From the NCBI GenBank assembly GCA_945868215.1, contig CAMBLN010000010.1, forward strand, positions 1 through 34,601: DNA of 34,601 bases, read 5' to 3'. Under the pieces are notes generated by a model. The model did no database searches. It was not told where the DNA came from and saw only the letters and a program-made list of their open reading frames with translations. The position numbers were made by a program, and so were the translations under genes. Below are positions 3,931 to 34,567 of the stretch, in pieces. Positions within the stretch are counted from its first letter, which is position 1. Every line of letters begins with the position of its first letter. Source of the DNA: Opitutus sp. GAS368. Lineage in GTDB: Bacteria; Verrucomicrobiota; Verrucomicrobiia; Opitutales; Opitutaceae.

Positions 3931-3955
3931 GTTTGTCACTTATTAAGTGACAAAC
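3931..3955. repeat. Intergenic palindrome (TGTCACTTA family), copy 1
   Basis: GTTTGTCACTT-ATT-AAGTGACAAAC; perfect 11-bp arms; 27 bp 3' of the minus-strand DASS stop. Confidence 0.9.
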
Positions 3956-3982
3956 TTGCTTGGGGGGCGGGGGCTGCGGCGG

Positions 3983-5494
3983 TCAGTTCAGGTTGAAGAC
4001 GAGGCGGCCGAGGGTCCACATGAGCAGCGGGAGGAGGAGGGCGAAGAGGAGGTTTACCCAGATGCCGGCGCGCAACATGCGGGGGAGCGAGACGAGTCCG
4101 GAGCTGTAGGCGATGGGGTGGGGCGGGGTGCCGACGGGGAGGGCGAAGTCGGCCGAGGCGGCGAGGGCGACGGGCACGCAGAGGAGCAGCGCGGGCTGGT
4201 TGACGCCGATGGCGAGGGCACCGATCACGGGGAGGAAGGCGGTGGCGGTCGCGGTGTTGCTGGTGAGCGCGGTGGCGAAAATCATCACGAGCGTGACGAG
4301 GAACATGATGGCGAGCGGGGGCCAGCCGGAGAGGCCCTGCATCGCGGTGGCGAGGGCGGCGACCAAGCCGGTTTTGTCCATGGCGCCGGCGAGGCTGAGG
4401 CCGCCGCCGAAGAGGATGAGGACATCCCACGGCATTTTTTGGAGGCCCTTCCAGTCGAGGATGAAGGTGTCGGCGCGGCGGTTGGCGGGAATGAAGAACA
4501 GCAGGACGGCGGCGCCCATGGCGATGACCTCGTCGGTGATGAGTTTGCCGAACGGAGTGGTTTTCCAGGCTTCGCGCGAAATCCACAGGACGATGGCGAG
4601 ACCGAAGGCGGCGCAGACGGCTTTTTCGGGCCAGGTGACGAGGCCGAGTTTGGCGCGTTCGCCGGAGATTTGTTCACGGACGCCGGGTATTTCGATGTTG
4701 GATACGCGGAAGCTGATGCGCGTGAGGACGAGGTGGACGAGAGGCAGCGCGATGAGGACGAGCGGCACGCCGATGAGCATCCACTGGCCGAAAGTGATTT
4801 CGATGCCGTGGGCCTTTTCCATGTAGGCTTTGAGGATGGCGTTGGGCGGGGTGCCGATGAGGGTGCCCATGCCGCCGATGTTGGCGCCGTAGGCGATGGC
4901 GAGGACGAGGGCGGCGCCCATTTCCTTGGCACCGAGTCGGGCGCCGGGGACGGATTTGAGGAGGGTGTAAACGCTGACGCCGATGGGCAGGAGCATCATC
5001 GCGGTTGCGGAGTTACTCGTCCACATGCTGATGAACGCGGCGGCGCAGAGGAAACCGAGGATGAGCGAGCGGGGTTTGGTGCCGACCTTGGCGATGATGG
5101 CGAGGGCGATGCGGCGGTTGAGGTTCCAACGCTACATGGCGAGGGCGAGCATGAAGCCGCCCATGAAGAGGTAGATGATCGGATCGGCGTAGGGCGCGGC
5201 GGCCTGGCGGATGGGCATGATGCCCATGAGCGGGAGCAGGACGAGCGGCAGCAGGGAGGTTGCGGGAATGGGCACGGCTTCGGTTACCCAGAGTGCGGCC
5301 ATGAGGACGGCGAGGAAGGCGACGCGCGTGCCCTCGGCGGTGAGGCCCGGGAGGGGCGGGCTGATCCAGATGGCGGCAAACAGCAGGGCGGCGATGATCA
5401 GGCCGATGCGACGGCTCCAGCCGAGGCCTGGGTTGTCGATGAGGTTGCCGTCCTGATCGTGAAGGGGGTGGGTGAGGGGGTAGTTTTTGTCCAT
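3983..5494 (-). pseudogene. SLC13/DASS-type sodium:dicarboxylate/sulfate symporter, interrupted by a single in-frame TAG (5132-5134)
   Basis: ATG at 5492-5494 (MDKNYPLTHPLHDQDGNLIDNPG...). Frame is continuous across the TAG (...GGFMLALAM*RWNLNRRIALAIIAKVG...), then ...MWTSNSATAMMLLPIG...GTLIGTPPNAI...LTSNTATATAFLPV. Only one internal stop and no frameshift. Confidence 0.85.
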
Positions 5495-5645
5495 GGCGGG
5501 GACGGGGGCGGGGCGGGGTTTGGCGAGCGTGGTGAACGGCTTGCGTGGCACAATCTTTTCGTGGCGGGCGGGTGACAATGCGGGGGGCGCGGAGTTTTGT
5601 GTGGCGTCGGGTTTCGGGGCCGCTGTAAGTCTCGGGCTTACTTTT

Positions 5646-6692
5646 ATGAAGAAAGCCAAGCTCCAGAAGCGTCCGGAAGACATCAACGCGAAGCTCGCCG
5701 CCAAGAAGGGCCCGATCTCGCAGTTTATCGCGCACAACTACCGTCATTTTAACGCGGCGGCGCTGTTGGATTCCGCCAAAGGTTACGAGGACCACCTCAC
5801 GGCCGGTGGCAAGATGCTCGTGACGCTCGCGGGCGCGATGTCCACGGCCGAACTCGGGCTCACGCTCGCGGAGATGATCCGTGCGGACAAGGTGCACGCG
5901 ATCGTCTGCACCGGCGCGAACCTGGAGGAGGATATTTTCAATCTTGTGGCGCACGATTATTACGAGCGCGTTCCCGGTTATCGCGACCTGACGGCGGCCG
6001 ACGAGCAGGCGCTCTTGGACAGACACATGAACCGCGTGACCGACACGTGCATTCCGGAAGGCGAGGCGATGCGGCGCATCGAGGCGGCGGTTGCGGAAGA
6101 GTGGATCGCCGCCGACAAGGCGGGGCAGCGGTTTTTCCCGCACGAGTTCATGTATAAGATTCTTCGCTCGGGTAAGCTGAAGAAGATGTATCAGATCGAT
6201 CCGAAGAACTCGTGGATGCTCGCGGCGTGCGAGAAGAACCTGCCGATCATCGTTCCCGGTTGGGAAGACGCGACGCTGGGCAACATGTTTGCCGGCCGCG
6301 TGATCACCGGTGAGATCAAGAACGTGCACACGGTGCGCACCGGCATCGAATACATGACCGTGCTGGCCGAGTGGTATACGAAGACCGCGAAGCTCCTCAA
6401 AAACGGTGAAGGCTCGATCGGGTTTTTCCAGATCGGCGGCGGTATCGCGGGCGATTTCCCGATCTGCGTGGTGCCGATGCTGCACCAGGATCTTGGGCGC
6501 ACGAGCGTGCCGTTGTGGGGTTATTTCTCGCAGATCAGCGACTCGACCACGTCCTACGGCAGCTACTCGGGCGCGGTGCCGAACGAGAAGATCACCTGGG
6601 GCAAGTTGGGTCAGAAGACCCCGAAGTTCATCGTCGAGAGCGACGCGACCATCGTGGCTCCGTTGATTTTCAGCTGGGTGTTGGGCAAGTAA
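5646..6692 (+). CDS. Deoxyhypusine synthase-like protein
   Basis: MKKAKLQKRPEDINAKLAAKKGPISQFI...VCTGANLEEDIFNL...ITWGKLGQKTPKFIVESDATIVAPLIFSWV; WGK contains the position equivalent to the catalytic Lys of eukaryotic DHS. Confidence 0.9.
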   Translation: MKKAKLQKRPEDINAKLAAKKGPISQFIAHNYRHFNAAALLDSAKGYEDHLTAGGKMLVTLAGAMSTAELGLTLAEMIRADKVHAIVCTGANLEEDIFNLVAHDYYERVPGYRDLTAADEQALLDRHMNRVTDTCIPEGEAMRRIEAAVAEEWIAADKAGQRFFPHEFMYKILRSGKLKKMYQIDPKNSWMLAACEKNLPIIVPGWEDATLGNMFAGRVITGEIKNVHTVRTGIEYMTVLAEWYTKTAKLLKNGEGSIGFFQIGGGIAGDFPICVVPMLHQDLGRTSVPLWGYFSQISDSTTSYGSYSGAVPNEKITWGKLGQKTPKFIVESDATIVAPLIFSWVLGK

Positions 6693-6719
6693 GCCGACTG
6701 GCAGAGCCGGATATCCGGA

Positions 6720-6744
6720 CGAAACGGCTCCGCCGTTCCGCTAC
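6720..6744 (-). repeat. REP-like hairpin with GTAG tetranucleotide (minus strand)
   Basis: CGAAACGGC-TCC-GCCGTTCCG-CTAC, 9-bp stem including one G-T; 27 bp 3' of the DHS-like stop. Confidence 0.5.
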
Positions 6745-6752
6745 GGGTTATA

Positions 6753-6787
6753 CAAAAAGCCGCACCTTTCGGGGTGCGGCTTTTTTT
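6753..6787. terminator. Bidirectional intrinsic terminator
   Basis: AAAAA-GCCGCACC-TTTCGG-GGTGCGGC-TTTTTTT between convergent genes ending at 6692 (+) and 6811 (-). Confidence 0.9.
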
Positions 6788-6810
6788 GGCGGGGCTGCCT
6801 GCGGTCAGGG

Positions 6811-7452
6811 TTAATTGAGGCTGACGCCGAGGAATTCGAGATCGGAGCCGGGGGTTTTGTCCACGAGGACGACCATCCCCTTGGCGTCGGTGGCGACGGC
6901 GAGGTTGTTGGCGCGGGCGATCTCTTTCATGAAGGTAGCCAAGGTCATGCGAGGCATGGCGCCGGAGAGTTTGACGCGGGCGGCGAGGTTGGCGGGTTCG
7001 GTGCGCACGAGAAGCGGCTGGCCGGCGGGAGACTTGATGGCGTCGACCGACAAGCGCCGGTTGAGGGTTTCCAGCACGAGATCGAGGCTCGTGTTGCTGT
7101 AGGTGGTCTCGGGCTGCGTGCCGCTGGCCGCGAGCAAAGTCCAGAGCGCGGGGTCGGCGGCTTTGAGGCCGTCCGGCAGCTTGAACTTCGGCGTTTGGGG
7201 GGCGGCTCGGAGCGACTTCACGTAGGCTTGGTCGGCCGGCGAGAAGGCCTTGAGGGACACGGTGAACGAGAGGCCGTCCTGGCGTTCGATTTTGATGGAT
7301 TCGGTGCCGATGGCCTCGACGAGACGCGCGGTGATCGTGCGACCATTGGCGTCGGTCCATTGGCGGAAATCGTGGGTGTCGGCGGCCTGAAGGGTGAGGC
7401 CGCACGTGAACTGAAGGGTAACCAAGCAAGCGAGGAGCTTGTATGGTTTCAT
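6811..7452 (-). CDS. Exported protein with SLA1 homology domain 1 (SHD1)-like N-terminal region
   Basis: Signal peptide MKPYKLLACLVTLQFTCGLTLQAA, then DFRQWTDANGRTITARLVEAIGTESIKIERQDGLSFTVSLKAFSPADQAYV. Confidence 0.7.
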   Translation of the reverse strand: MKPYKLLACLVTLQFTCGLTLQAADTHDFRQWTDANGRTITARLVEAIGTESIKIERQDGLSFTVSLKAFSPADQAYVKSLRAAPQTPKFKLPDGLKAADPALWTLLAASGTQPETTYSNTSLDLVLETLNRRLSVDAIKSPAGQPLLVRTEPANLAARVKLSGAMPRMTLATFMKEIARANNLAVATDAKGMVVLVDKTPGSDLEFLGVSLN

Positions 7453-7601
7453 AAGAATGAGGATGCAGAAAGCCTGTCAGCCGGAGCCACGCAAGCGATT
7501 AGTGTAAAACTAGTGCATTATAGGGGTGGTGGGGGTGGTGGGTAAGTGGTGCGGAGCGTTGCATCGGTCGGGTTTTTGCGTGAACGTGCGTGCTTCGATT
7601 C

Positions 7602-9770
7602 ATGCCCAACGAACTTGCCCACGAAAAATCGCCCTACCTGTTGCAACATGCCGCGAATCCGGTGGCCTGGCTGCCTTGGGGGGGGGCGGCGTTTGCGAAG
7701 GCGCGGGCGGAAGGGAAGCCGGTTTTTTTGAGCATCGGTTATTCGACCTGCCATTGGTGTCACGTGATGGCGCACGAGTCGTTTGAGAACGCGGAGATCG
7801 CGGCGATTTTGAACGAGCATTTTGTGTCCGTGAAAGTGGACCGCGAGGAGCGGCCGGATGTGGACAAGGTTTACATGGCGTATGTGCAGGCGATGACGGG
7901 GCACGGCGGGTGGCCGTTGTCGGCGTGGCTGACGCCGGACCTGAAGCCGTTTTACGGCGGCACGTATTTTCCGCCGGAGGACCGGCACGGGCGCACGGGG
8001 TTACCGTCGATCCTGCGGGCGATTGCGAAGGCGTGGGCGGAAGATCGCGAGCGGCTGGTCGCGGAGTCGGTGCGGGTGATCGATTCGCTGACGGAGTATC
8101 ATGAGTCGCGGCGGTCGGAGGCCGGGGCGGCGCCGGATCTGCACGATTCGGGCGGGGAGGCGTTTGAGAAGGCTTATCAGTATTTTAATGAAAACTTCGA
8201 TGCGACGAACGGCGGGTTTGGCGGTGCGCCGAAGTTTCCGCGGGCGTCGAACCTGGGGTTTTTGTTGCGGGCGGCGGTGATTCAAGGCGTCGAAACCGAG
8301 TCGGGGCGCGAAGGCGTGAAGATGGTGGCGGTGACGCTGCAAAAGATGGCGGGCGGAGGGTTGCACGACCATGTCGGCGGAGGGTTTCACCGTTACTCGG
8401 TGGATGAGGCGTGGTTTGTGCCGCACTTCGAGAAAATGCTCTACGACCAGGCGCAGATCGCGGTGAACGCGCTGGAGACGCACCAGGCGACGGGGGACGA
8501 ACGGTTCGCGTGGATGGCGCGGGATGTATTCAATTATGTGTTACGCGACCTGGCGGCGCCGGGCGGGGCGTTTTATTCGGCGGAGGACGCTGATTCGCTG
8601 CTGGCGCACGGGAAGCCGGAGCACGCGGAAGGGGCGTTTTATGTGTGGACGCGGTCGGAGATCGAGTCGGCGTTGGAGGCGGACGATGCGGCGCTGGTGT
8701 GCGCGCATTTTGGTGTCGCGGCGGAGGGCAACGTGCCGGTGCAGCTTGATTCGCACGGGGAGTTCACGGGGAAAAACATTTTGATGCAGCGGCAGCCGCT
8801 GGCGGCGACGGCACGGGGGCTGGAGCTCGCGCCGGAGGTGGCGGCGGAGCGTTTGGGGGCGGCTTTGGAGGTGATGCGGGCGGTGCGGGAGAAACGACCG
8901 CGTCCGCATCTGGACGACAAGGTGATCACGGCGTGGAACGGGTTGATGATCTCGGCGCTGGCGCGGGCGGCGGTGTCGACCGCGGGGTGTCTGGCGGACG
9001 TGCGCGACGGTTACCGGGCGGCGGCGGTGAAGGCGGCGGAGTTCATCGAGCGGGAGTTGTATGATGCGAAGCGCGGGGTATTGTATCGGAATTTTCGTGA
9101 CGGGCGCGGGGCGAACGAAGGGTTTGCGGAGGATTACGCGTATCTGATCGCGGGGCTGCTGGATTTATATGAGGCGACCTTTGATGCGCGCTGGCTGCGG
9201 TGGGCGGACGGGTTGCAGCAGGTGATGGACGCGTTGTTTTGGGATGCGGAGCACGGTGGGTATTTCAACTCGCGGGCGGACGATGCGGGCATCGTGCTGC
9301 GGTTGAAGGAAGATTACGACGGGGCGGAGCCCTCGCCGAATTCGGTGGCGGCGGGGAACCTCCTGGGGATGTCGGCGATGCTCCATGACGACGCGGCGCG
9401 GGAGCGGGCGTTGGGGACGATCGAGGCGTTGCGGGCGCAGTGGGCGAAGGCGCCGCATGCGTTGCCGGAGATGTTGTGCGCGATCGAACGGGCGCTGGAG
9501 CTGCCGCGTCAGGTGGTGATCGCGGGGGACGTGGCTTCGGCGGAGTTTCGTGAACTCGCGGATGTGTTGAGGGAAAAGGCGGGACCGCGGCGGGCGGTTT
9601 TGGCGACGCCGGGCGAGGATGAGGCGGGGCGGTGGCTGGCGGGACGGGCGCCTTGGCTGGCGGAGATGAAACCTGGGGCGGACGGACGGGTGCGGGCGTT
9701 TGTGTGCGAGCGGTTCAGTTGTCAGGCGCCGGTGGATACGGCCGAGGCGTTGCGGACGGTGTTGGGCTGA
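7602..9770 (+). CDS. YyaL/DUF255 (SSP411-like) thioredoxin-domain protein
   Basis: [26 protein letters not shown]...[16 protein letters not shown]...[15 protein letters not shown]...[24 protein letters not shown]...[17 protein letters not shown]. Confidence 0.95.
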
Positions 9771-9775
9771 GCCGA

Positions 9776-9802
9776 GCCGCGCCTGCAAGCAGGCGGCCTA
9801 CC
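9776..9802 (-). repeat. REP-like hairpin with GTAG tetranucleotide (minus strand)
   Basis: GCCGCGCCTGCAAGCAGGCGGCCTACC; bulged stem, starting 6 bp after the YyaL stop. Confidence 0.7.
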
Positions 9803-9998
9803 TTCGGCAAAGGGTGGGGTTAAAAAATGTAAAGCTGGCGAAAGCAAGGGGGAGCAGAAAGGCGGGGATGGCAGAAAACTTACACCCCCAGCCGGCAGCT
9901 GGACGGGTTGAGTGGATCGGGGATTGTCAATGGGCTGCGGAACGGCGCATAACATCATCAAGTCAGCATTTTCCCCGCCCCATTTTTTCCAACCAGTC

Positions 9999-10610
9999 GT
10001 GAAAATCCTCGCCGTAGAAGATGATCCGGTCGCCCGCGCGGTGCTGCACCAGGCCCTGTTGCGGCTGGGGCATGAAGTGATCGAGGCGAAGGACGGGGCG
10101 GAGGCGTTGCGGGTGTTGGAGAAAGAGCCGGTGCGACTGATCGTGAGCGACTGGATGATGCCGGAGCTCGACGGGTTGGGGTTGTGCCGGGCGGTGCGCA
10201 ACCGGGTGAACGCGGATTACGCGTATTTTATTCTGCTCACGAGCCGGGAGGCGGATGTGGACAACCAGCGGGAGGCGATCGAGGCGGGGGTGGATGATTT
10301 TCTGACGAAGCCGCTCGATTTACAGGAGATCTGGATGCGGTTGCGCGTGGCGGAGCGGATCTTGCGCTATGCGACGGAAGTGCGGCAGCTGGAGGCATTC
10401 CTCCCTATCTGCGGCTACTGCAAAAAAGTGCGCGACGACCAAAATTACTGGCAGCAGATCGAGAGTTACATCAACGAACGGACGGGCACGGATTTCAGCC
10501 ACTCGGTGTGTCCGGATTGTTACCAGCGCGTGGTCGTGCCGGAGTTGGAGAAACTGCGGGCGAGTTCGCCCGCCCCTGCAAACAAACCCCGTGTCGAACG
10601 AACGAATTGA
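9999..10610 (+). CDS. Response regulator, receiver domain plus C-terminal CxxC...CxxC segment
   Basis: GTG start; VKILAVEDDPVARAVLHQAL...IVSDWMMPELDGL...LLTSREADVDNQREAIEAGVDDFLTKPLD...ICGYCKKVRDDQNYWQQIESYINERTGTDFSHSVCPDCYQR. Confidence 0.9.
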   Translation: MKILAVEDDPVARAVLHQALLRLGHEVIEAKDGAEALRVLEKEPVRLIVSDWMMPELDGLGLCRAVRNRVNADYAYFILLTSREADVDNQREAIEAGVDDFLTKPLDLQEIWMRLRVAERILRYATEVRQLEAFLPICGYCKKVRDDQNYWQQIESYINERTGTDFSHSVCPDCYQRVVVPELEKLRASSPAPANKPRVERTN

Positions 10611-10800
10611 TCGTCTGGAGGAGCGGCTGGCGTGGTTGCAGCGACATGTGGTCGAGCAGGACAAAGCCATGCTCGAAATGGCGGGGCAGCTGGACCGGCT
10701 GAAGGCGGAGCTGACGCGGTTGCGCCAGCGGGCGGAGACGGCGCCGGCGGGCGGGGAAGGAGAGCGAAACGCGGCGGAGGAGAGGCCGCCGCATTATTAA
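10591..10800 (+). CDS. slyX: SlyX family protein
   Basis: GTG start inside the 3' end of the response regulator; VSNERIDRLEERLAWLQRHVVEQDKAMLEMAGQLDRLKAEL...PPHY ending typical of SlyX. Confidence 0.82.
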   Translation: MSNERIDRLEERLAWLQRHVVEQDKAMLEMAGQLDRLKAELTRLRQRAETAPAGGEGERNAAEERPPHY

Positions 10801-10830
10801 GGCGGGGGCGGAGCCGAGGACCTCGCGAGG

Positions 10831-11274
10831 TCAGGGGGTGACCAGGCCGGTGCCGGCGGTTTTCAGGGTGATCGTGTCGTTGTCACCGACGGTGACCTCC
10901 AAGGAGCTTTCGACGGAGGCGCGGAGTTGTCCGGGGTGCTTGGCGAGGTAGGCGCGGAGTTCGGCGGCGAGCTTGGGCGTGAGGGTGGCCGAGTGGGGGA
11001 CGCCGCCCAAGGGCGGGATGCCGACGGGGGTGCGGTCGTCGAGGCGGCCGATTTGGGTGTCGCCGAGATAGAGTGTGTGGGTTGAGCGGCTGACGACGAG
11101 CGGGGCGGTGTTGGGGTTGATGAATTCCAACTGGAGGGCGTAGGTGTCCGCGGAGGGCGTCAGGCTTTTGACGCGGAGGGCGGGGGAATCGAGGCGGCGT
11201 TCGGGCGGGGTGCCGCAGCCGGAGAGAATCAGAGCGAGCAGGGACAGGCAGGTGAGGGAAAGCAGTGAACGCAT
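10831..11274 (-). CDS. LEA14-like (LEA type 2 family) lipoprotein
   Basis: Lipobox LALILSGC; LQLEFINPNTAPLVVSRSTHTLYLGDTQIGRL. Confidence 0.7.
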   Translation of the reverse strand: MRSLLSLTCLSLLALILSGCGTPPERRLDSPALRVKSLTPSADTYALQLEFINPNTAPLVVSRSTHTLYLGDTQIGRLDDRTPVGIPPLGGVPHSATLTPKLAAELRAYLAKHPGQLRASVESSLEVTVGDNDTITLKTAGTGLVTP

Positions 11275-11339
11275 GGGGGCATCAAAGGCGTTCGGGTGCG
11301 GGGTGCAAATGCGGAGACGCGGGCCGATCCAGGGGATTT

Positions 11340-11370
11340 TTAACCACGGATTACGCAGATGGGCACGGAT
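11340..11370 (+). repeat. TTAACCACGGA... repeat (half-element)
   Basis: TTAACCACGGATTACGCAGATGGGCACGGAT; closely matches 26394-26424. Confidence 0.6.
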
Positions 11371-11933
11371 CAGGTGCCGTGAGGACGGGCGCGGAAGGCT
11401 CGGTCGTTTAGAAAAACGAGAGGGCCTTGGCGCTTTCGACGGCGACCCAGGCGAAACCGACGGCGGCGCCGATCATGACGACGGCGCGGGTGAGTTTTTG
11501 AAACTGCAGGCGGCGGTCGTGGCGGTCGGGATGACGGTGGCGGCTGCAACCCTGCACCGACATAAAGCTGGCAAACTGGCCGTTGCGCACGGGGGTGGTC
11601 CGCGTGGTGCGACGCGATCCCTGACCTCGAATGAAGGTCGGGAGGCGCAGAAAACGCAAAAATGTGGTCAGGGCGCGGAGCACGAAACGACCTTCGAGGC
11701 AAGACGCGCGGGGGTTCAAGAGGGAAGTGGGGAAACGGATACATTTTCACAGATGTTTGGCAGAGCGAGGGGTGAACGGACAGGCGGCGGAGACGTAGTT
11801 TGGCTTGTAAGGCGCGCGGAGGGGCGGTGGTGGTGCTTTCGTCTCCGAAGATGCCGCCGAGGATGCGGTGAGAGTTTGGGGTGGTTTTTACGCGGGGGAA
11901 CCGGCAATTGTTCCGGTTTCCAAGAAGACCGTC

Positions 11934-13238
11934 ATGCACCACTTCACTTACGTCGGCTCCAACCTGCATTGCGAATCCGTCGATCTCGCCGAGATCGCCC
12001 GCCTTTACGGCACGCCGACCTACGTTTACAGCGCGACCACGCTGGCGGACAATTACACGCGGTTGGCCAACGGATTGACGGGGCTCGATGTGCAGGTGTG
12101 TTATGCGCAGAAGGCCAACGCGAACATCGCGATCCTGCGGCATTTCGCGAACCTCGGGGCGGGCTTTGATCTGGTGAGCGGCGGGGAAATCCGGCGTGTG
12201 CTGGCAGCGGGCGCGGACGTGAAGCGCAGCGTGTTTGCCGGCGTGGGCAAGACGGAGCCGGAGATCAAGCTGGCGCTGGAGAATGGGATTTTTGCGTTCC
12301 ACGTCGAGAGCGAGCCGGAGATCGCGCGCATCAATCATGTGGCGGGCAAACTCGGGATGAAGGCGCCGATCGCGATCCGCATCAACCCGGACGTCGATGC
12401 AAAGACCCACGCGAAGATCACGACGGGCAAGTCGGAGAACAAGTTTGGCATTCCGCTCAAATACGCGGCGGCCGCCTACGAGGCGGCGGCGAAGTATCCG
12501 AATATTTTCATCAAAGGCGTGCAGATGCACATCGGTTCGCAGCTGACGAGCGTGGCGCCGTTTGTCGAGGCGGTGACGAAGGTCGTGCCGTTTGTCGAGG
12601 AGTTGAAGGCGAAGTATGGCATCACGTATTTCTCGATCGGCGGCGGCATCGGCATCGTTTACCAGGATGCGCTGGCGAGCGGACAGCAGGCTTGGTGGGA
12701 CGCGCAGCCGGCGGAGACGCGGCCGATCACGCCGGAGGCTTATGGCGCGGCGTTGGCTCCGCTGCTGAAGCCGCTTGGGTTGAAGATCCTGCTGGAGCCG
12801 GGCCGCAACATGGTGGGCAACGCGGGCGTGTTGTTGTCGCGGGTGGAATATTTAAAGCGCGGCGAAGGGCGCAATTTTCTGATCATCGACGCGGCGATGA
12901 ACGATCTGGCGCGTCCGGCGATGTATGACAGCTACCACGAGATCGTGCCGCTTCACCGGGACAGCGGACGCCGCGCGTTCACGGCGGATGTGGTGGGGCC
13001 GATCTGTGAAAGCGGAGATTGTTTCGCCAAGCAGCGTCCGCTGCAGGAAATCGGCGAAGGCGAGTATATCGCGTTCATGAGCGCGGGTGCGTATGGTTTC
13101 TCGATGGCGAGCCGCTACAACACGCGCAATCTGGCGTGCGAAGTGTTGGTGAAGGGGGCGAGCTTTGAGCTGATCAACGCGCGCGAGACCTTCGAGCAGC
13201 AGATCGCGAACGAGAAGATTCCGGCGTTTTTGAAGTGA
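11934..13238 (+). CDS. lysA: Diaminopimelate decarboxylase
   Basis: PLP-Lys motif VCYAQKANANIAIL; HIGSQL; LLEPGRNMVGNAG; GPICESGDCFAKQR; SAGAYGFSMASRYNTR. Confidence 0.95.
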   Translation: MHHFTYVGSNLHCESVDLAEIARLYGTPTYVYSATTLADNYTRLANGLTGLDVQVCYAQKANANIAILRHFANLGAGFDLVSGGEIRRVLAAGADVKRSVFAGVGKTEPEIKLALENGIFAFHVESEPEIARINHVAGKLGMKAPIAIRINPDVDAKTHAKITTGKSENKFGIPLKYAAAAYEAAAKYPNIFIKGVQMHIGSQLTSVAPFVEAVTKVVPFVEELKAKYGITYFSIGGGIGIVYQDALASGQQAWWDAQPAETRPITPEAYGAALAPLLKPLGLKILLEPGRNMVGNAGVLLSRVEYLKRGEGRNFLIIDAAMNDLARPAMYDSYHEIVPLHRDSGRRAFTADVVGPICESGDCFAKQRPLQEIGEGEYIAFMSAGAYGFSMASRYNTRNLACEVLVKGASFELINARETFEQQIANEKIPAFLK

Positions 13239-13255
13239 GGCGGAGTCGGAGTTTT

Positions 13256-13343
13256 TTAACCACGAAACACACGAACTACACGAAAGTCGGAGCTCGGATT
13301 TTGGACGTATTCTTTTCGTGTATTTCGTGTGTTTCGTGGTTAA
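13256..13343. repeat. MITE-like inverted repeat, 31-bp arms (TTAACCACGAAACACACGAA...)
   Basis: Left arm 13256-13286 TTAACCACGAAACACACGAACTACACGAAAG; right arm 13313-13343 is its reverse complement with 2 mismatches. Fills most of the lysA-gpsA gap. Confidence 0.9.
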
Positions 13344-13352
13344 CCCGTCTTT

Positions 13353-14351: not shown

Positions 14352-14527
14352 GGCGATTGTCGGAGGGTGGGCCGCAAAAAGGCGCAAAAAAAGAGCCGTC
14401 CGGCGAATCGAGTCCCCCGCGCGCCGATAGGCGCGATGCGAGGTTTCGAAGGCCGGACGGCCGGGGAGCGCGAGCGAGTGGCGGACTGTCGCTTCGCTCG
14501 AAACGCGGCCTACGGGGCTGAGGAAGG

Positions 14528-16670: not shown

Positions 16671-16695
16671 ATTTGTCACTTATTAAGTGACAAAT
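16671..16695. repeat. Intergenic palindrome (TGTCACTTA family), copy 2
   Basis: ATTTGTCACTT-ATT-AAGTGACAAAT; outer pair changed G-C to A-T relative to copy 1; 7 bp 3' of the minus-strand TPR-like gene stop. Confidence 0.9.
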
Positions 16696-17238: not shown

Positions 17239-17261
17239 TTTGTCACTTAATAAGTGACAAA
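17239..17261. repeat. Intergenic palindrome (TGTCACTTA family), copy 3
   Basis: TTTGTCACTT-AAT-AAGTGACAAA; 22 bp 3' of the minus-strand GH-like gene stop. Confidence 0.9.
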
Positions 17262-18685: not shown

Positions 18686-18710
18686 GTTTGTCACTTATTA
18701 AGTGACAAAC
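18686..18710. repeat. Intergenic palindrome (TGTCACTTA family), copy 4
   Basis: GTTTGTCACTT-ATT-AAGTGACAAAC; identical to copy 1; 19 bp 3' of the minus-strand stop at 18730. Confidence 0.9.
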
Positions 18711-25212: not shown

Positions 25213-25232
25213 AGGGGCGCGGGCAAGGCGTG

Positions 25233-25260
25233 AAAAAGCCCCGGCGGTGCGGCCGGGGCT
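25233..25260 (-). terminator. Intrinsic terminator of the Gfo/Idh gene
   Basis: Minus-strand reading AGCCCCGGC-CGCACC-GCCGGGGCT-TTTT; 9-bp stem followed by T tract; 21 bp 3' of the minus-strand stop. Confidence 0.82.
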
Positions 25261-25281
25261 GCGGGGCGACGGTGTATCGGA

Positions 25282-26340: not shown

Positions 26341-26393
26341 GGATTGGAAGGGGGAGGAGGTTGGGGAATACGAACAGCTGAAACATTCAGACT

Positions 26394-26453
26394 TTAACCA
26401 CGGATTTCACGGATGGGCACGGATTGATGGGTTTGTATCCGCGCTGATCCGCA
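26394..26453 (+). repeat. TTAACCACGGA... repeat with decayed inverted right part
   Basis: TTAACCACGGATTTCACGGATGGGCACGGAT then ATCCGCGCTGATCCGC, imperfectly complementary to the left part. Confidence 0.55.
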
Positions 26454-26851
26454 AGAGAATATAAATTTTTTTCGCAGCTATGCCAATCTGATATAAGATC
26501 TTGGACAATAAGAGCCGGGGGTTTCGACTACGGCCGGCTTCGAGTGGCGAAGGGACGCGGAGAGGCGCATCGAGGAGCGTAAGCGTCGGCCCCGCCTCGA
26601 AGCCGGTGTGTATCGAGGATTTGATTACACGGATGGAAAAGCGGGACCCGGACGCGCGGTGGATAACCGATGGCGTTAACGTCGGTTAATACGACGAACG
26701 GGAGGCGTTTCGGTGACGATTGTGATCGTGGGTTTACGCGAAGGTTAAGATTTGGTGCGCAACAAGTCGGGTGTTGTGCCGGGGTCGGGGGCGGGCTTGA
26801 GATGCGGAACGCCAGTCACGTAGTTAAAAAACAAATACACCGTTCACCGCC

Positions 26852-27550
26852 ATGAGCATTCCGATCACATCGTCCTCCCGTCTGTTCGAGGCGATCGACC
26901 GCGAGCAGGCCGTGCAACTGCAGGTGCATCTTGACGATCCGGGGACGCATTACCTGGTGTTGTATGCGGGTGCGGACGGGTCGCAGGTGGCGGTGATGCC
27001 GGTGGGGCCGAACTGCATGTTTACGAATCTGTCCCTGCTGGCGGGCAAGGAGATCGAGGGGTTGAAGCCGGTGTCGGCGGCGCGGACGCGGTTCGCGCCC
27101 ACGCTGGAGACGCGGTTTTTGTCGGATCTGTGGATACATCTGGGGCAGGCGCGGCTGGATGCGTCGGCGTTCAGGAATTTTTCACTGGAGTTGCGCGAGA
27201 TACCGGCGGAGGAGAAGGAGACGCTGCTGCTGGAGATCCTGGCGCGGTTGAGGATGTTTCACCAGGACATGGCGCAGATGCTGGCGTTGCCGCTGGAGGA
27301 GATCGAAACATGCCGGCACAGCGACGGCGTGGGGATGCCGGCGGGGCTGCGCACGTTGATGATCGAGCGGTTCCACGAGGCGCGGGAGCAACTGGCGGTG
27401 GTGGAGCAGCGGGAGCAGTTCCTGAGGGAGCGCGAGCATTCGTTGATCTCGGGACTCGAGCAGCGGGCGCAAGTGGCGTCGGCGGCGCCCTTCCCCGTGC
27501 CGACGGGAACCGGCGCGGGGCCGGGGTATCGCGGCGGCGGGGTGCGCTGA
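26852..27550 (+). CDS. Protein of unknown function, helical/coiled-coil C-terminus (first gene of three-gene operon)
   Basis: MSIPITSSSRLFEAIDREQAVQLQVHLDDPGTHYLVLYAGADGSQVAVMPVG...; C-terminal EAREQLAVVEQREQFLREREHSLISGLEQ; followed 20 bp later by the next start. Confidence 0.7.
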   Translation: MSIPITSSSRLFEAIDREQAVQLQVHLDDPGTHYLVLYAGADGSQVAVMPVGPNCMFTNLSLLAGKEIEGLKPVSAARTRFAPTLETRFLSDLWIHLGQARLDASAFRNFSLELREIPAEEKETLLLEILARLRMFHQDMAQMLALPLEEIETCRHSDGVGMPAGLRTLMIERFHEAREQLAVVEQREQFLREREHSLISGLEQRAQVASAAPFPVPTGTGAGPGYRGGGVR

Positions 27551-27569
27551 CGACGGGTGAATAATTTTT

Positions 27570-29450
27570 ATGAGCGTTGAAAAATCCACAGGCAAAGCGA
27601 CGGATGCGCGGAGTAATGCGGGGAACGGTTCGCCGTTTGCGATAAAGATGCAGCGGGCGGTGGTGGCACCGCCGACGCCGGAGTTGGTAAAGTTGACACC
27701 GGCACCGGTGGCGGCGGAACCTGTGTATAACGAGCAGACGATTCCGCCGACATCCATGCAGACGGCACCGGTCGCTCCGGCGGCGGGTGTGAAGCGGATG
27801 ATGGTGCCGCCGCCGGATCCGCAGGGACGGCCGCGCTGGCTGGATACGCCGGTGCAGGGAGTGCAGGTGGCGGCGGCCGGCGTGGTCGCGCCGGTGCAGG
27901 AACCGAAACCGGCGGCGGTGGAGCCGAAGACGCCGGTTAAAAAGAAGGGCGTGAGCGCGGGGTGGATCGGGTGGCTGACGGCGGGAGTGTTGGTGCTGGG
28001 GGGCGGAGCCTGGTATTTTTTGAAGGGGGACGCGAAGGCCGGGGTGAAGGCGGCGTCGGCGGCCGTTGCGGCGGTGGCCGCGCCTGCGCCGGCTCCGGCA
28101 CCTGCGGTGGTGGTGGCGGATGCGGGGGATGAGTTGGAGGCGGCGATGGCGGCGAAGCGTGAGGCGGAAGAGTTGATTGCGCTGGCCCGTGCGGGAGCGG
28201 TTACGGGCGAAGTGGATCCGGGGCTGGCGGGGGCGTTTGCCGGTGCGAGCGGGGCACAGCGGCGCTTCGAGGCGGGGGAGCTGCGTGAAGCGGGGGAGTT
28301 GTGGCGGGCGGCGGCGCGCAGTGCGGGCGAGGTGGCGGTGAAGGTGGCGAGGCGGCGTTACGAGACGGGGTTCGAGGCGGTGCCGATGAAGATGTTGTCG
28401 GAGTATGCGCCGGACGAGGCGGCGAAACTGGCCGGGCAGGTGAAGGCGGCCGAGGGACTGGCGGCGAGCGATCCGAAGGCGGCGGGTGAGGCTTATTACC
28501 AGGCGGCGGCGGCGGTGAAACGGGTGCGGGAGGCGGCGGCGCGGCAAACGAGGGTGCTGGCGGAGAAGGCGGTGGCGGCGAAGGACGCGGGCATGGCGTT
28601 GTATTTTTACGAGCAGGAGCTGCGGCTGGCGCCGGGGAGCGAGGAGGCGCAGGCGTATGTGTTTCGTCACAAATTCAAGCCGGGGCAGGTGTTGACGACG
28701 CCGACGGGGCTGGCGCTGGCGTATGTGCCGCCGGGGACTTTCAAACAAGGCACGCCGGCGGGGGAACCGGGGCGTGATTCCGACGAGGTGCAGCGCACGG
28801 TGACGGTGACGAAGGGGTTTTACATGGGGATGACGGAGGTGACGCAGGCCATGTGGGACCGGGTGATGGGGGCGGGGCAGGCGGAGGCGCGCATCACGGC
28901 GGGGAAGCAGAAGCGGGATTTTATCGGAGGGGACAAGCCGATGGTTCTGGTGACGTGGGAGGATGCGCAGGAGTTCTGCCGCCGGTTGGGGGAACGGGAG
29001 CAGGCGAGTTACCGGCTGCCGACCGAGGCGGAGTGGGAATATGCGTGCCGGGCGGGGACGACGACGGCGTTCCAGTCGGGTGCGGGGCTGAGTTTGCGCG
29101 AGGCGAACATTGACGACGGGTCGAGCCGGGCGGTCGGAGCGCCGGTGTCGGCGGGGACGGCGGGTGTGGCGAACGGGTGGGGGTTGAGCGACCTGCACGG
29201 CAATGTGTGGGAATGGTGCGCGGACTGGAGCGCGCCGTATGCCGCGACGGCGCTTAGCGATCCGACCGGACCGGCGGACGAAAACATCGGGCGTCCGGAT
29301 CTGGCGATGAAGGTGGTGCGCGGCGGCTCGTGGAATGACGGCGCGACGGAGGCGCGCTCGGGGAATCGCTGGAGTTATTCGCCGGTGGTGGTGACGGCCT
29401 ACATCGGGTTCCGCGTGATCCGTGAAATTGATTTTTCTTCCCAACCATGA
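27570..29450 (+). CDS. Single-pass membrane protein with C-terminal FGE-sulfatase (SUMF1-like) domain lacking catalytic cysteines
   Basis: TM WIGWLTAGVLVLGGGAWYFL; Ala/Glu-rich helical middle; LAYVPPGTFKQGT...MTEVTQAMWDRVM...YRLPTEAEWEYACRAGT...LSDLHGNVWEWCADW...VVRGGSWNDGATEARSGNRW...IGFRVIRE. Confidence 0.88.
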   Translation: MSVEKSTGKATDARSNAGNGSPFAIKMQRAVVAPPTPELVKLTPAPVAAEPVYNEQTIPPTSMQTAPVAPAAGVKRMMVPPPDPQGRPRWLDTPVQGVQVAAAGVVAPVQEPKPAAVEPKTPVKKKGVSAGWIGWLTAGVLVLGGGAWYFLKGDAKAGVKAASAAVAAVAAPAPAPAPAVVVADAGDELEAAMAAKREAEELIALARAGAVTGEVDPGLAGAFAGASGAQRRFEAGELREAGELWRAAARSAGEVAVKVARRRYETGFEAVPMKMLSEYAPDEAAKLAGQVKAAEGLAASDPKAAGEAYYQAAAAVKRVREAAARQTRVLAEKAVAAKDAGMALYFYEQELRLAPGSEEAQAYVFRHKFKPGQVLTTPTGLALAYVPPGTFKQGTPAGEPGRDSDEVQRTVTVTKGFYMGMTEVTQAMWDRVMGAGQAEARITAGKQKRDFIGGDKPMVLVTWEDAQEFCRRLGEREQASYRLPTEAEWEYACRAGTTTAFQSGAGLSLREANIDDGSSRAVGAPVSAGTAGVANGWGLSDLHGNVWEWCADWSAPYAATALSDPTGPADENIGRPDLAMKVVRGGSWNDGATEARSGNRWSYSPVVVTAYIGFRVIREIDFSSQP

Positions 29451-30703
29451 AATCCAAAAAAACCTGTTCTGATTATTTAAAACCGACCCGGGCGGCGTTT
29501 GCGCTGCTGGTTGTCTGTGCGGGGGTGCTGCCTTTTTCCGGGTGTGTCGCGCCGGAGTCCACCCCGGCCTACAAGGAGGCGCAGGCGCGCGCGGAGGCGG
29601 AAAAAGCGAAGCAGGTGGCGCATGTGATGGAGATGCGGCGCATCGGGACGTTGAGTGATGCGCAGGCGGTGGACGTGCTGGCGGCGATCAACGGGCAAAA
29701 GCCCGCGCCGCGCACGCCGGTGGCCGAGGCGGCGAAGCCTGCGGCGCCGGTGACGAGTGCGCCGGCGGCGACCAGCCCCGCACCGACGGTTGTGCCGGTG
29801 GGCGGGGCCGCGCCAGATGCGCGTTACCAGCCGGTGCGAGTGCTCAAAGGGGAGCGCATGCGGAGCATCGGATCGGATTCGATGGACGAGATGGTGGCGG
29901 AGTTGGAGAAGGTGTTTTTGGGTTACCACGAAGGGCTGCGGATCGCCCACGAAGGGCTGGGTTCGTCGACGGCGATGCCCGCGTTGATCGAAGGGCGTTC
30001 GGATTTCGGTCCGATGAGCCGGCCGTTGCAGGCGGCGGAAGTGGAGCGTTTCCAGGCGCATTTCGGGTATCCGCCCACGCTTTTGCGCGTGGCAGTGGAC
30101 GCGCTCGGGGTGTATGTGCACCCGGACAATCCCATCGCCAAGAGCGGCCTGACGCTGGGGCAGCTTGACGCGATTTTTTCGGCGACGCGCAAGCGGGGCG
30201 AGGCGGCGATCACGACCTGGGGTCAACTCGGGCTGACGGGTGACTGGGCGAATGCGCCGGTCGTCATTTTCAGCCGCAACAAAGCCTCGGGGACGTATGG
30301 GTTTTTCCGCGACGAGGTGTTGATGAAAGGCGAGTTTGCCCCGGTGGTGCAGGAGCTGCCCGGCAGCGCGGCGGTGGTGGCGGCGGTGGCCGCCGAGCGC
30401 TATGCGATCGGGTATTCAGGAATCGCCTACAAGACGCCCAGCGTGAACGCGGTGCCGCTGGCGAAGACGGCGGGTGCGGCCAAGGTCGCTCCGGGCGAGG
30501 CGACGGCGATCAACGGCAGTTATCCGCTGGCCCGGGGACTTTATATCGTGATCAACCGCGATCCCTCCAAGCCGGCGAACGACAAGCAGCGGGAGTTTTT
30601 CACCTTCACGCTCTCGCCGGTGGGGCAGGAGGTCGTGAAAAAAATCGGTTATTATCCGCTGGTGGGCGCGGCGTTGGAAAGCGAGCGGGCGAAGCTGAAG
30701 TGA
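29447..30703 (+). CDS. PstS-like phosphate-binding lipoprotein
   Basis: Lipobox FSGC; IGSDSMDEMVAELEKVF...GLGSSTAMPALIEGRSDFGPMSRP...SRNKASGTYGFFRDEVL...YAIGYSGIAY. ATGA overlap with the upstream gene. Confidence 0.85.
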   Translation: MKSKKTCSDYLKPTRAAFALLVVCAGVLPFSGCVAPESTPAYKEAQARAEAEKAKQVAHVMEMRRIGTLSDAQAVDVLAAINGQKPAPRTPVAEAAKPAAPVTSAPAATSPAPTVVPVGGAAPDARYQPVRVLKGERMRSIGSDSMDEMVAELEKVFLGYHEGLRIAHEGLGSSTAMPALIEGRSDFGPMSRPLQAAEVERFQAHFGYPPTLLRVAVDALGVYVHPDNPIAKSGLTLGQLDAIFSATRKRGEAAITTWGQLGLTGDWANAPVVIFSRNKASGTYGFFRDEVLMKGEFAPVVQELPGSAAVVAAVAAERYAIGYSGIAYKTPSVNAVPLAKTAGAAKVAPGEATAINGSYPLARGLYIVINRDPSKPANDKQREFFTFTLSPVGQEVVKKIGYYPLVGAALESERAKLK

Positions 30704-30717
30704 CGAGGGCGGACAGA

Positions 30718-30755
30718 AGGCGAAGGGCCGCGGGTTTGCCTGCGGCCCTTCGCCT
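30718..30755. terminator. Strong hairpin between convergent genes, probable terminator
   Basis: AGGCGAAGGGCCGC-GGGTTTGCCT-GCGGCCCTTCGCCT, perfect 14-bp stem between 30703 (+ stop) and 30774 (- stop); T tract weak on both strands. Confidence 0.6.
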
Positions 30756-30773
30756 GAAAAAGGGACGGTTGGA

Positions 30774-31748
30774 TCACATGCCGTCCATGATCGAGTTGAT
30801 CTGGCCGTAGTATTGGAGGGCGAAGGAAATCACGAACCAGGCGACCAGGAGGGCGACGGCGGCGAAGAGCACGCCGGGGTAGATCATGGAGGCGGCGGTG
30901 AGGCGGGCGTTGGCGGCGGTCTGGTGGTGCTCGGCGAGGGAGAAGAGCGTGGTGTCCAGGCTGCCGGTGGTTTCGCCGGTTTGGTAGCGGGCGACGTATT
31001 CGGAGGGAAATACGTCGAGGGCGGTGAGGTGGGGGCCGGGGGCTTCGCCGCGTTCGATGCACGCGTGGATGGTGCGGGTGGCTGCGGCGATGCGGGGGGA
31101 GCGGGCGAGTCCGCCGGCGGCGAGCCAGGCATGGTCGATGGGGGCGCCGCTTTCGAGGAGGTTGCCGAGGGCGAAGGAGAAGTCGGCGAGGGCTTGGTGG
31201 CGGCGGTAGCCGCCGATGGCGGGGAGGATGTTGAGGAGGGCGAGGGCGAGCGGGTGTTCGCGGCGGATGAGGACGCGGAGCAGGAAGGCGCCGCCCCAGA
31301 CGGGGAGGAGGATGGCGAGGAGTCCGCCGAGGTAGGCGGAGAGACTCCAGTTGAGTCCGGTTTCAAAATCGATGAGCCGGAGGAACGGGAAGAGGACGGC
31401 GGCGAGGTGGAAGACGCCGGCGGGGTAGAGGCAGGCGAGGAGGACGCGGCGGCGGGTCTGCGCGATTTGCGCGTGGCGTTCGGCGAGGTTGACGAGGACG
31501 CGCGGGAGGCGTCCGGAGCGGGCGGCGGCGGCGAGAAAGGGACGGTCGTTTTGCGGGAGCCAGTCTCCGGCTGAGGCGATGATTTCGGGGATGGAGAGTC
31601 CGTCTTCGGCGAGGGCGGAGAGGCGGAGGGTGTCGGCGGCGGGGGCGGACGAAGGCGCGCGGAGGGCCTGGGCGAAGGTGAGGCCGGCCGAGAGTTGCTG
31701 CGCGAGCTGGTGGTAGAAGCGCGAGAGGGTCGCGGGAGGGAGGGGCAC
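30774..31748 (-). CDS. GspF/PilC-type type II secretion inner-membrane protein
   Basis: LAQQLSAGLTFAQAL; DFSFALGNLLESGAPIDHAWLAAGG; YQTGETTGSLDTTLFSLAEHHQ; C-terminal TM. Confidence 0.85.
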   Translation of the reverse strand: MPLPPATLSRFYHQLAQQLSAGLTFAQALRAPSSAPAADTLRLSALAEDGLSIPEIIASAGDWLPQNDRPFLAAAARSGRLPRVLVNLAERHAQIAQTRRRVLLACLYPAGVFHLAAVLFPFLRLIDFETGLNWSLSAYLGGLLAILLPVWGGAFLLRVLIRREHPLALALLNILPAIGGYRRHQALADFSFALGNLLESGAPIDHAWLAAGGLARSPRIAAATRTIHACIERGEAPGPHLTALDVFPSEYVARYQTGETTGSLDTTLFSLAEHHQTAANARLTAASMIYPGVLFAAVALLVAWFVISFALQYYGQINSIMDGM

Positions 31749-31790
31749 GGACGGGGTGGTTACTGAGTGGATACGCGGATTTCGGGCATC

Positions 31791-31810
31791 GCCTGCAAGC
31801 AGGCTCCTAC
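31791..31810 (-). repeat. REP-like hairpin with GTAG tetranucleotide
   Basis: GCCTGC-AA-GCAGGC-TCCTAC. Confidence 0.7.
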
Positions 31811-31820
31811 ATTTCGGAAA

Positions 31821-31843
31821 GCCCGACCGGCGGTCGGGCCTAC
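31821..31843 (-). repeat. REP-like hairpin with GTAG tetranucleotide
   Basis: GCCCGACC-GGC-GGTCGGGC-CTAC, perfect 8-bp stem, 11 bp 3' of the ATP-grasp gene stop. Confidence 0.7.
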
Positions 31844-31854
31844 ATCGGACGGGG

Positions 31855-34386
31855 TTAGAGTTTCAGTTCGACCTGGGTCATGCGGGGGGCGATGCGGGCC
31901 TGGTGGCTGAAGTAGTGGTCGCTGAGGACGGGGTGTAGGGCGTAGAGGCGGTCGAGGAGGTCGGCGAGGGTTTCGCTGAGTTTGGCGTCTTCGGCGGAGG
32001 GGCGGTCGGGGTCGTCGTTGAAGTGGCGGGCGAGGGGGACGGCGGCGATGAAGTTGAGGGTGTCGGTGACGACGGCGATGGTGGGGTCGTCGCCGGGTTC
32101 GCCGACGTCGTGGCGGATGGCGCGGAGGGCGATTTTGATCTGATGGAGGTTGTGGAAGATGCTGCGGGGGGCGTCGGGTTGCTGGAGGAACAACTCGGCG
32201 ACGAAGCGCGGCTGGCTGCGCATCTGGTAGAGGCGGCGGTAGGCGTCCTGGGAGCCCAGCATGCGGAGGAGGGCGGAGAGTTCGGGGTTGTCGCGGTAGG
32301 GGGTTTTGGCGGCGGCGTCGGCGGCGGGGCGGGCGGCGGCGGCGGTGTCGAGGGCGCTGAGGATGTGGCGGAGGGCGCTGCACGTCATGGTGGCGCGTTC
32401 GAGGTGCATGCCCATGTGGAGGAAGTGCCAGCCGGCGTCCTGGACCATGGTGCGTTCGGCGAGGCCGATCATGGCGTTGATCTCGGTGAGGACGGTCTGG
32501 ACGGCCTGGGTGGGCAGCGACGGGCCGCGGTCGGGGCGGGCCACGGTGCGGCGTCCGCCGGGAACGGGGCGGAGCTTGTGGAGTTCGTCGAGGCGGCGGA
32601 GGAGACGGCCGAGGGTGGTCCAGACCTCGGGGCTGACGTAGTCGCGGAGCTGGCGGGCGTTTTCGACGGCCCAGCTGATGGAGGAATAGATCGAGCTGGA
32701 GTTGGCGGTGTCGAGGGACATGCGCCACATGAGGTCGGTGGAGAGGGAAGCCTGGGGGTTGGCGCGGGCGGTGATTTTGTGGTCGGTGTGGCCGGTGGCC
32801 TCGAGGAGGCCGCGCCAAAGCGGGAGCCAGCGGCGGCGGTCCTTGGCGGAGATTTCCTCGAGGGCGACGTCGTCGAGGATGGACAACATGCGGGCGGTGG
32901 CCTCGGCGCGTTCGAGGTAGCGGCCGAGCCAGAAAAGGTGTTCGGCGGCGCGGGAGCCGAGGGTGTTGGTCTGGACGCCGCCGGAGGCGGTTTCGTGGTC
33001 GGCGATGTCGCCGGAGTTGTCCTGGGTGTCGATGAGGACGACGGCATCGGCGGTGGGGCCGACGCGGGAGGTGACGTGGTCGGGTTCGCCGAGCCGGACG
33101 AGTCCGCCCGGGAAGACGGAGAAACGCCGGCCCTGGCAGAGGACGAAGGCGGAAAGGCGGGCGGGGGGGGCGTTGCGCGGGCCGGGGGAGACGGGCAGGA
33201 GTTGGAGGCGCGGCTGGGCGACGAACGCGTGCGGGTTTTCGCGGACGGTCTTGGAGAGTCCGCCGGGGCCGATGAGGGCGGGGGAGGAGGCGGGGGCGAA
33301 GTTGGTGGAAAGCCAGTCGCCGTTGCGCGGGTCGTGGGCGGGGAGGATGCGGAGACGGTCGCCGTGTTCGAGGATGTAGTCGAGGTGGTCGGTGTCGCCG
33401 CACGTGTAGGTGGGGACGGAGCCGAGCAGGGGTTTCTCGCCGAGGTAGAAGCGGAGGAGCTTGGGGGCGTAGGCGTTGAGGGCGCGGCTCTCGGCGATGC
33501 CGGTGCCGATGGCGTTGGCGAGGACGACGTGGCCGGTGCGGATGCACTGGAGGAGTCCCGGGATGCCGGCGTTCTCGCGGTCGGTGGAGAAGACGACGGG
33601 GTCGATGTGGGCGTCGTTGAGGCGGCGGTAGATGACGTCGACGCGTTCGAGGCCGGCGATGGTTTTGAAGTAGACGCGGTTGTCGAGGACGAGGAGGTCG
33701 TCACCGCGGGCGAGGGGGAGACCCATCTTGCGGGCGAGGAAGCTGTGCTCGGAGTAGAACGGGTCGTGGGGGCCGGCGGTGAGGACGACGATGGACGGGG
33801 CGCGGATGTCGCCGGGGGCGAGGGCGCGGAGGTGGTCGAGGAGCTGTAGTGGAAAGTTGATTACACTGTGGTAATCGGGGAGGGCGCGGTAGAGATCGGT
33901 GGCCTCCTGGGTCATGAAACGGCGGTTCTGGACCGCGTAGGAAAGACCGATGGGGGTGTTGGCGCGGGTGTCGTCGAAGAGCCAGCCCTCGGCGGTCTTG
34001 ACGAGGTCGAAGCGGAGGAGAGTGGCGGGGCTGGCGCGGTGGGGTTCCAAGTCCAGGCAAGGGCGGCGGTAGTAGGGGTCGGAGAAGACGAGCTCGGGCG
34101 GGATGATGTGCTGGTGGAGGGCCTGTTGACCGCCGTAGAGATCGACGAGGAGGGCGTTTACGAAGTGGGCGCGCTGGCGGAGGGCGGCTTCGAGTTGGGT
34201 CCATTCGGGGGCCTCGATGACTAGGGGGGTGGGCTCGAGTTCCCAGAACGGTTGTCCGGCGGGGCCGGCGGCGAGTCCGAAATCGGTGAGGCCGGCGTCA
34301 CGGATGGAGGCACGCAGGCGGGCGCGCAACGGGCGGAGTTGCGCGGGGTGGAGCGTGGGATGTGACGACGGGCGGGCGGACGGCAT
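31855..34386 (-). CDS. Fused circularly permuted ATP-grasp type 2 / alpha-E domain protein
   Basis: N-terminal: LLVDLYGGQQALHQHIIPPELV...FDLVKTAEGWLFDDTRANTPIGLSYAVQNR...LVLDNRVYFKTIAGLERVDVIYRRLNDAHIDPV...ANAIGTGIAESRALNAYAPKLLRFYLGEKPLL. C-terminal alpha-E: LGSRAAEHLFWLGRYLERAEATARML...AGWHFLHMGMHLERA. Confidence 0.95.
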   Translation of the reverse strand: MPSARPSSHPTLHPAQLRPLRARLRASIRDAGLTDFGLAAGPAGQPFWELEPTPLVIEAPEWTQLEAALRQRAHFVNALLVDLYGGQQALHQHIIPPELVFSDPYYRRPCLDLEPHRASPATLLRFDLVKTAEGWLFDDTRANTPIGLSYAVQNRRFMTQEATDLYRALPDYHSVINFPLQLLDHLRALAPGDIRAPSIVVLTAGPHDPFYSEHSFLARKMGLPLARGDDLLVLDNRVYFKTIAGLERVDVIYRRLNDAHIDPVVFSTDRENAGIPGLLQCIRTGHVVLANAIGTGIAESRALNAYAPKLLRFYLGEKPLLGSVPTYTCGDTDHLDYILEHGDRLRILPAHDPRNGDWLSTNFAPASSPALIGPGGLSKTVRENPHAFVAQPRLQLLPVSPGPRNAPPARLSAFVLCQGRRFSVFPGGLVRLGEPDHVTSRVGPTADAVVLIDTQDNSGDIADHETASGGVQTNTLGSRAAEHLFWLGRYLERAEATARMLSILDDVALEEISAKDRRRWLPLWRGLLEATGHTDHKITARANPQASLSTDLMWRMSLDTANSSSIYSSISWAVENARQLRDYVSPEVWTTLGRLLRRLDELHKLRPVPGGRRTVARPDRGPSLPTQAVQTVLTEINAMIGLAERTMVQDAGWHFLHMGMHLERATMTCSALRHILSALDTAAAARPAADAAAKTPYRDNPELSALLRMLGSQDAYRRLYQMRSQPRFVAELFLQQPDAPRSIFHNLHQIKIALRAIRHDVGEPGDDPTIAVVTDTLNFIAAVPLARHFNDDPDRPSAEDAKLSETLADLLDRLYALHPVLSDHYFSHQARIAPRMTQVELKL

Positions 34387-34503
34387 GAAACGAAGTGGTG
34401 ATGAACAGTCGGGCGGAGCGCAGGCGCAAGCACGGGGTTTGCCAGATGAAGGAGGACGAGGGGGTTAAAGGGTTAACCGCGAAAAGGCGATGGGGCGCGG
34501 AAT

Positions 34504-34524
34504 CGCGAGCAAGCTCGCTCCCAC
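34504..34524 (-). repeat. REP-like hairpin with GTGG tetranucleotide
   Basis: CGCGAGC-AA-GCTCGC-TCCCAC; minus strand GTGGGAGCGAGCTTGCTCGCG resembles the well-known Pseudomonas REP consensus. Confidence 0.7.
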
Positions 34525-34544
34525 GAATGAGAGCCGGGATGAAA

Positions 34545-34567
34545 AGTGTCACCTAATAGGTGACACT
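34545..34567. repeat. Intergenic palindrome (TGTCACTTA family), diverged copy 5
   Basis: AGTGTCACCT-AAT-AGGTGACACT; two inner arm changes relative to copies 1-4 are each compensated on the opposite arm. Confidence 0.82.

Follow-up and report, generated by a model that had tools for sequence, protein, structure and literature searches.

A dispersed palindrome family of Opitutaceae, found between and within genes, with genome-specific spellings and paired arm changes

What are the short palindromes scattered through this DNA, and what keeps their two arms matched? A sequence-only reading had listed five in the window, by which we mean the whole 34,601-nt stretch analysed (C10:1-34601 of our own genome, G000, an assembly of 3.07 Mb in 220 contigs). 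All five were recovered as exact matches, here given without strand; 100 dinucleotide shuffles of the window yielded none. Four belong to a T subfamily. Those at 3931..3955 and 18686..18710 read GTTTGTCACTTATTAAGTGACAAAC, that at 16671..16695 has A-T as its outer pair (ATTTGTCACTTATTAAGTGACAAAT), and that at 17239..17261 has a reversed centre (TAATA on the + strand), opposing the usual strand polarity. The copy at 3931..3955 lies between the minus-strand genes 1979-3850(-) and 3983-4999(-) and carries on the + strand a directional tail, AACTTGCTTGGGG (3953..3965), recognized from column statistics of 57 T copies; it fits the subfamily tail AAYTGGRTTGGGG, and its initial 3 bases overlap the palindrome arm. 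The fifth palindrome, AGTGTCACCTAATAGGTGACACT at 34545..34567, is of a C subfamily; it is close to the end of the contig and 160 bp upstream of where the minus-strand gene 31855-34386 starts. Contigs C7, C17, C53, C104, C169 and C200 of the same genome likewise end ~40-75 bp from a palindrome, as if the assembly had been broken by these repeats. An Rfam search of the window gave no match.

Genome-wide search, proposed in the sequence-only reading, puts the family far above chance: 85 copies were found at ≤3 mismatches, against 0 for a reversed-pattern control. The exact pattern TGTCACNTATTANGTGACA occurs 73 times, and its free N...N pair is only ever T-A (57) or C-G (16). T copies are mostly GTT-TGTCACTTAWTAAGTGACA-AAC and C copies mostly AAG-TGTCACCTAWTAGGTGACA-CTT. 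The pairs at ±3, ±10 and ±11 from the centre differ between the two subfamilies and go together in our genome. At these three pairs, which the search pattern leaves free, 99, 97 and 90% of own copies are complementary, compared with 62, 61 and 57% after shuffling of partners, and the excess declines to chance by ~±13. It is therefore confirmed that the arms change in pairs, as the five copies had suggested, and the structured core is ~23-25 bp. The 3-nt AT centre was also borne out, and among T copies its direction follows the G-rich strand. Copies that are dispersed and restricted to one family, fall into subfamilies, form doublets and keep their palindromicity support the earlier suggestion of a REP-like repeat with a partner.

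The same reading had proposed a U-tract-independent 3′-end element, noting that four of the five copies lie 7-27 bp 3′ of a minus-strand stop codon. This holds in the window (10-30 bp when counted from the 19-bp core) but does not extend to the whole genome. With genes called by a simple codon-usage script rather than a standard finder, intergenic copies number 23 in tandem, 8 in divergent and 7 in convergent gaps, which fits the 57, 26 and 17% expected from gap lengths; convergent gaps thus show no excess, and some copies lie between divergent genes. Copies in tandem gaps lie 21 to ~500 nt past the stop codon and may be weakly shifted in its direction (mean relative position 0.40). About a third of copies (26/76) overlap genes, 18 of these 26 being >40 nt from both gene ends; genes are still under-represented, because the regions are 85% coding. 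No U tract follows the 57 T-subfamily palindromes, which run instead into AAC/AAT and a G-rich tail, and the combination of stem and U tract at gene 3′ ends that marks intrinsic terminators was not found.

Copies within genes of our genome have the palindrome read in its stop-free frame. Since the arms read TGT CAC YTA W, this frame is open in both orientations with nearly the same peptide, CHL[IL][SG]D[KT], often with NP ahead; relatives carry CHV[IL]RD, or other-frame peptides from a G variant. The restriction to one frame indicates tolerance and not selection for the peptide, because the other frames hold stops. Host reading frames are intact and belong to many unrelated genes, among them those for TatD, an MGMT and an RsmE. 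Further hosts are presumably a DNA glycosylase-like protein, a cysteine desulfurase, an NnrD-like protein and an M32-like peptidase, and we take those with multiple copies to be an NAD-dependent epimerase/dehydratase-like protein (two), an amidase (two) and a FolK-PabB fusion (three). Alignment of TatD orthologs reveals an empty site (LKESPNPICHLISDKPAKPSRLETF versus LDPRKTKQQDTF), and empty sites occur in relatives for IscS and the PabB part of FolK-PabB too, so that in these three conserved genes the palindrome is an in-frame insertion of the kind that characterizes Rickettsia palindromic elements (RPE). When a solved TatD-type chain was aligned, most of the insert fell in a gap; MGMT and RsmE gave no clean insertion in alignments with solved structures. 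At some ortholog loci of relatives (L251-L253, L277 and L310, from G002, G008 and G012) the peptides NTTGY, NQLGN and SNLLGY stand at the same insertion sites, and may represent additional spellings of the palindrome or copies that have decayed.

Each genome favours its own spelling among the dialects TGTCACTTA, TGTCACCTA, TGTCACGTA, TGTAACTTA and TGTAACCTA. All copies in G002 are C (53/53) and all those listed for G018 are G; G010 has mostly TGTAACTTA, its TGTAAC class amounting to 45 copies; and TGTAACCTA is frequent in genera g46 and g51. Orthologous sites were compared by aligning the G010 and G001 copies with our genome. Strict flank alignment gave 14 shared sites for the 46 copies of G010 and 14 for the 27 of G001, and looser gap scoring gave 17 for each, counts that are lower bounds since the comparison covered loci around our own copies. 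At shared sites the 19-bp core is 0.907 (G010) and 0.972 (G001) identical with no gaps, flanks 4-40 bp away are 0.52-0.63 identical with 11-26% gaps, and background DNA of the same loci, >100 bp away, is 0.80 identical.

What change there is between our genome and G010 is concentrated in one pair. At 13 ungapped shared sites both sides of pair ±6 have changed in 8 and one side in 3, and the other arm positions show no changes. In coding copies the ±6 change replaces H by N and D by Y, giving CNLLSY/CNLLSD against our CHLLSD/CHLISD; because unrelated proteins carry the same double change, whatever drives it seems to act on the DNA or the transcript. The C-to-A shift at ±6 occurs in our own genus and in at least two other genera. 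The IscS site has T in our genome, G004 and G009 and C in G001 and G011; such exchange of T and C at shared sites needs three linked pair changes and resembles block replacement or repeated insertion. Given these arm-paired, species-specific spellings, something in the cell probably reads the palindrome.

As single-stranded DNA, the palindrome forms a hairpin whose stem is 11-13 bp and whose loop is 3 nt, at -8 to -12 kcal/mol and a z of -5 to -8. In our genome the G-rich strand carries the centre T in 51 T copies against 3 (27 against 5 in G010, 16 against 1 in G001); this strict bias is seen in the T subfamily and is absent from the C and G subfamilies. The window itself has a GC skew of +0.19 to +0.38 along its whole length whatever the gene strand, and this uniformity, with genes on both strands, makes it probably a replication signal. 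The G-rich strand is usually the leading strand. If so here, the lagging-strand template, on which IS200/IS605-type single-strand transposases act (PMC6006769), carries the element in a fixed sense. Doublets, found in several genomes (e.g. G000 C4:43227/43283 and C177:5423/5480), combine all relative orientations, and their start-to-start distances cluster at 42-48 and 54-59 bp, with none at 49-53. The two spacing classes differ by about one helical turn. G002 has tandem arrays with a 90-bp period. Few unpaired half-sites exist, because intact T palindromes explain ~108 of the 117 half-site matches.

Among 388 Verrucomicrobiota genomes sampled, 21 have the palindrome and all are Opitutaceae (21/37, against 0/351 in other families); the near-perfect palindrome of 19-25 bp reaches tens of copies in some genomes, a single genus spans 0 to 85, and many of the genomes compared are drafts. 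In a scan of named genomes nearly all matches listed were from Opitutaceae/Opitutae (Verrucomicrobiota); the single matches listed for each of Marmoricola, Dysgonomonas, Clostridiales and Hymenobacter are what chance would give when 257 Gb is searched with a 17-base pattern. Viral contigs gave 0 matches, and phage carriage was rejected on that ground.

Two groups of known palindromes are closest. Rickettsia palindromic elements are intragenic (PMC2229807), and CGTC-tagged REPs include RPE-4, RPE-6 and Neisseria dRS3 (PMC3733652). Like these, our palindromes are dispersed, occur in frame inside genes as well as between them, form doublets and have no associated transposase. Unlike them it has neither a CGTC tag nor a CCA tail: CGTC is not enriched near copies, no unpaired CGTC/TGTC tag was found, and the TGTC of the palindrome pairs with GACA within the stem. 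In Rickettsia, repeat identity is reportedly lost among the copies (PMC6649704), whereas Opitutaceae arms are kept perfect and the dialect shifts in concert. GTAG-tagged REPs and REPINs work with RAYT transposases (PMC3116915, PMC3733652), and intragenic ones have been reported in Opitutus terrae (PMC3733652). Like them, our palindromes are short, split into subfamilies whose arms use alternative complementary bases, form doublets, occur in Opitutaceae and are in part intragenic; they differ in lacking the tag (GTAG lies ≤12 bp from 1/75 own copies, below control windows) and in having no RAYT gene flanked by the palindrome among the loci examined. The family thus resembles known intragenic palindromes but falls outside both tagged superfamilies. 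We found no published description of it in the literature searched, where most subscription papers were absent.

The window does contain a RAYT-like Y1 transposase gene, 1399-1875 (+), within a region (1345-1980) where it is flanked by different REP units of its own, GCGCGTTGGGGACAACGCGCTCCACC and an arm-compensated variant, GCGGCTTGGGGACAAGCCGCTCCACC. It was rejected as partner on account of this other REP and because no examined Y1 locus bears the palindrome. In the loci examined the closest Y1 match is 0.6-6 kb from a palindrome, a search of one relative with 10 copies gave no Y1 match, and no mobilizing enzyme was found among the Y1 loci examined.

Chromosome-organizing dyads such as MatP matS and the SlmA, Noc and ParB sites number in the tens, are dispersed and also occur in genes, with sequences different from ours. 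The main rival to a mobile element is that the palindromes are sites of a chromosome-wide dimeric DNA-binding protein (a nucleoid organizer, nucleoid-occlusion or segregation factor), with mobility secondary or historical. The 19-bp dyad with nearly always paired 9-bp half-sites, the conserved island amid fast-changing flanks, the concerted dialect shift and the indifference to gene ends all suit such a protein. We nevertheless consider it unlikely, since the sites are added sequence with shared flanks exceeding the dyad, vary from 0 to 85 copies within one genus and show no clear (or significant) chromosomal pattern in the complete genome G032. A 3′-end element, whether terminator or mRNA stabilizer, has in its favour the four window copies past a stop codon and the stable hairpin. 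Against it stand gap classes at background, overlap with genes, a T subfamily lacking the U tract, and paired changes inside coding sequence too. We judge it the least credible of the readings, with hardly any chance of being right.

Two further readings explain part of the data and are, in our opinion, very improbable. Quasi-palindrome (template-switch) correction is an established mutational mechanism that turns one-arm changes into two-arm changes without selection, and the palindromes might be neutral relics of an old insertion whose arms are equalized by it alone; one-arm intermediates do exist. Correction alone, however, cannot account for one substitution recurring at many loci of a genome, nor for the lack of change at every other arm position where background identity is 80-83%, and the even spread of paired changes over arm positions that it predicts is not seen. 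The other reading is a minimal MITE, left over from an insertion sequence or built from its terminal repeats joined together. A MITE could be reduced to little more than its two ends, and the element is added sequence, but the scarcity of unpaired ends and the viral contigs free of the palindrome speak against it. Terminal repeats of an insertion sequence were rejected because half-sites are nearly always paired.

We therefore favour, as probable though far from assured, a REP/RPE-class non-autonomous mobile palindrome of Opitutaceae that spreads as a hairpin and whose dialect is held by a co-evolving factor. Dissemination by copying is indicated by added sequence, flanks shared beyond the dyad, doublets, arrays and subfamilies; orthologous copies that hardly vary, arms that change in pairs and dialects shared across a genome indicate later maintenance by an arm-reading agent. 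Copies would spread, now or in the past, when the replication fork exposes them as a single-strand hairpin that some enzyme mobilizes. Those landing in genes would survive because one frame is stop-free in either orientation and because they sit in tolerant, fast-evolving stretches. A predicted trans-acting protein, possibly the mobilizing enzyme itself, would recognize the arms as hairpin or dyad and hold a genome's copies to one dialect, and drift in its specificity would drive the paired changes. Three observations weigh against the mobile palindrome: the Y1 loci examined yielded no mobilizing enzyme, retention at orthologous sites exceeds what a purely selfish, decaying element needs, and strict strand bias is limited to the T subfamily. 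More tentatively, and as less likely than not, we suggest that the predicted protein and its 50-90 inserted sites co-evolve as dialects. Drift in recognition would then rewrite one base pair on both arms at dozens of orthologous sites, protein genes included despite the amino acid changes there (H to N, D to Y), and DNA-level selection would override protein sequence.

The most informative facts were out of reach of the first reading: the palindrome enters proteins in frame, genomes differ in dialect, and orthologous sites undergo paired change in concert. Protein-coding palindromes are best known in Rickettsia and usually viewed as decaying selfish DNA, and intragenic REPs have been reported more widely. 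Intact orthologous copies with concerted dialect change offer a testable separation of selfish relic from maintained site, the family provides natural replicates with which to look for the partner of transposase-free REP-like elements, and it illustrates how proteins gain peptides from a short DNA element. A local cluster is seen in the relative G002, at C2:530-777 kb, where GC skew is too weak for placing origin or terminus: twelve palindrome loci fall within 250 kb (0/5000 random placements), and their centre orientation mostly flips near 620 kb.
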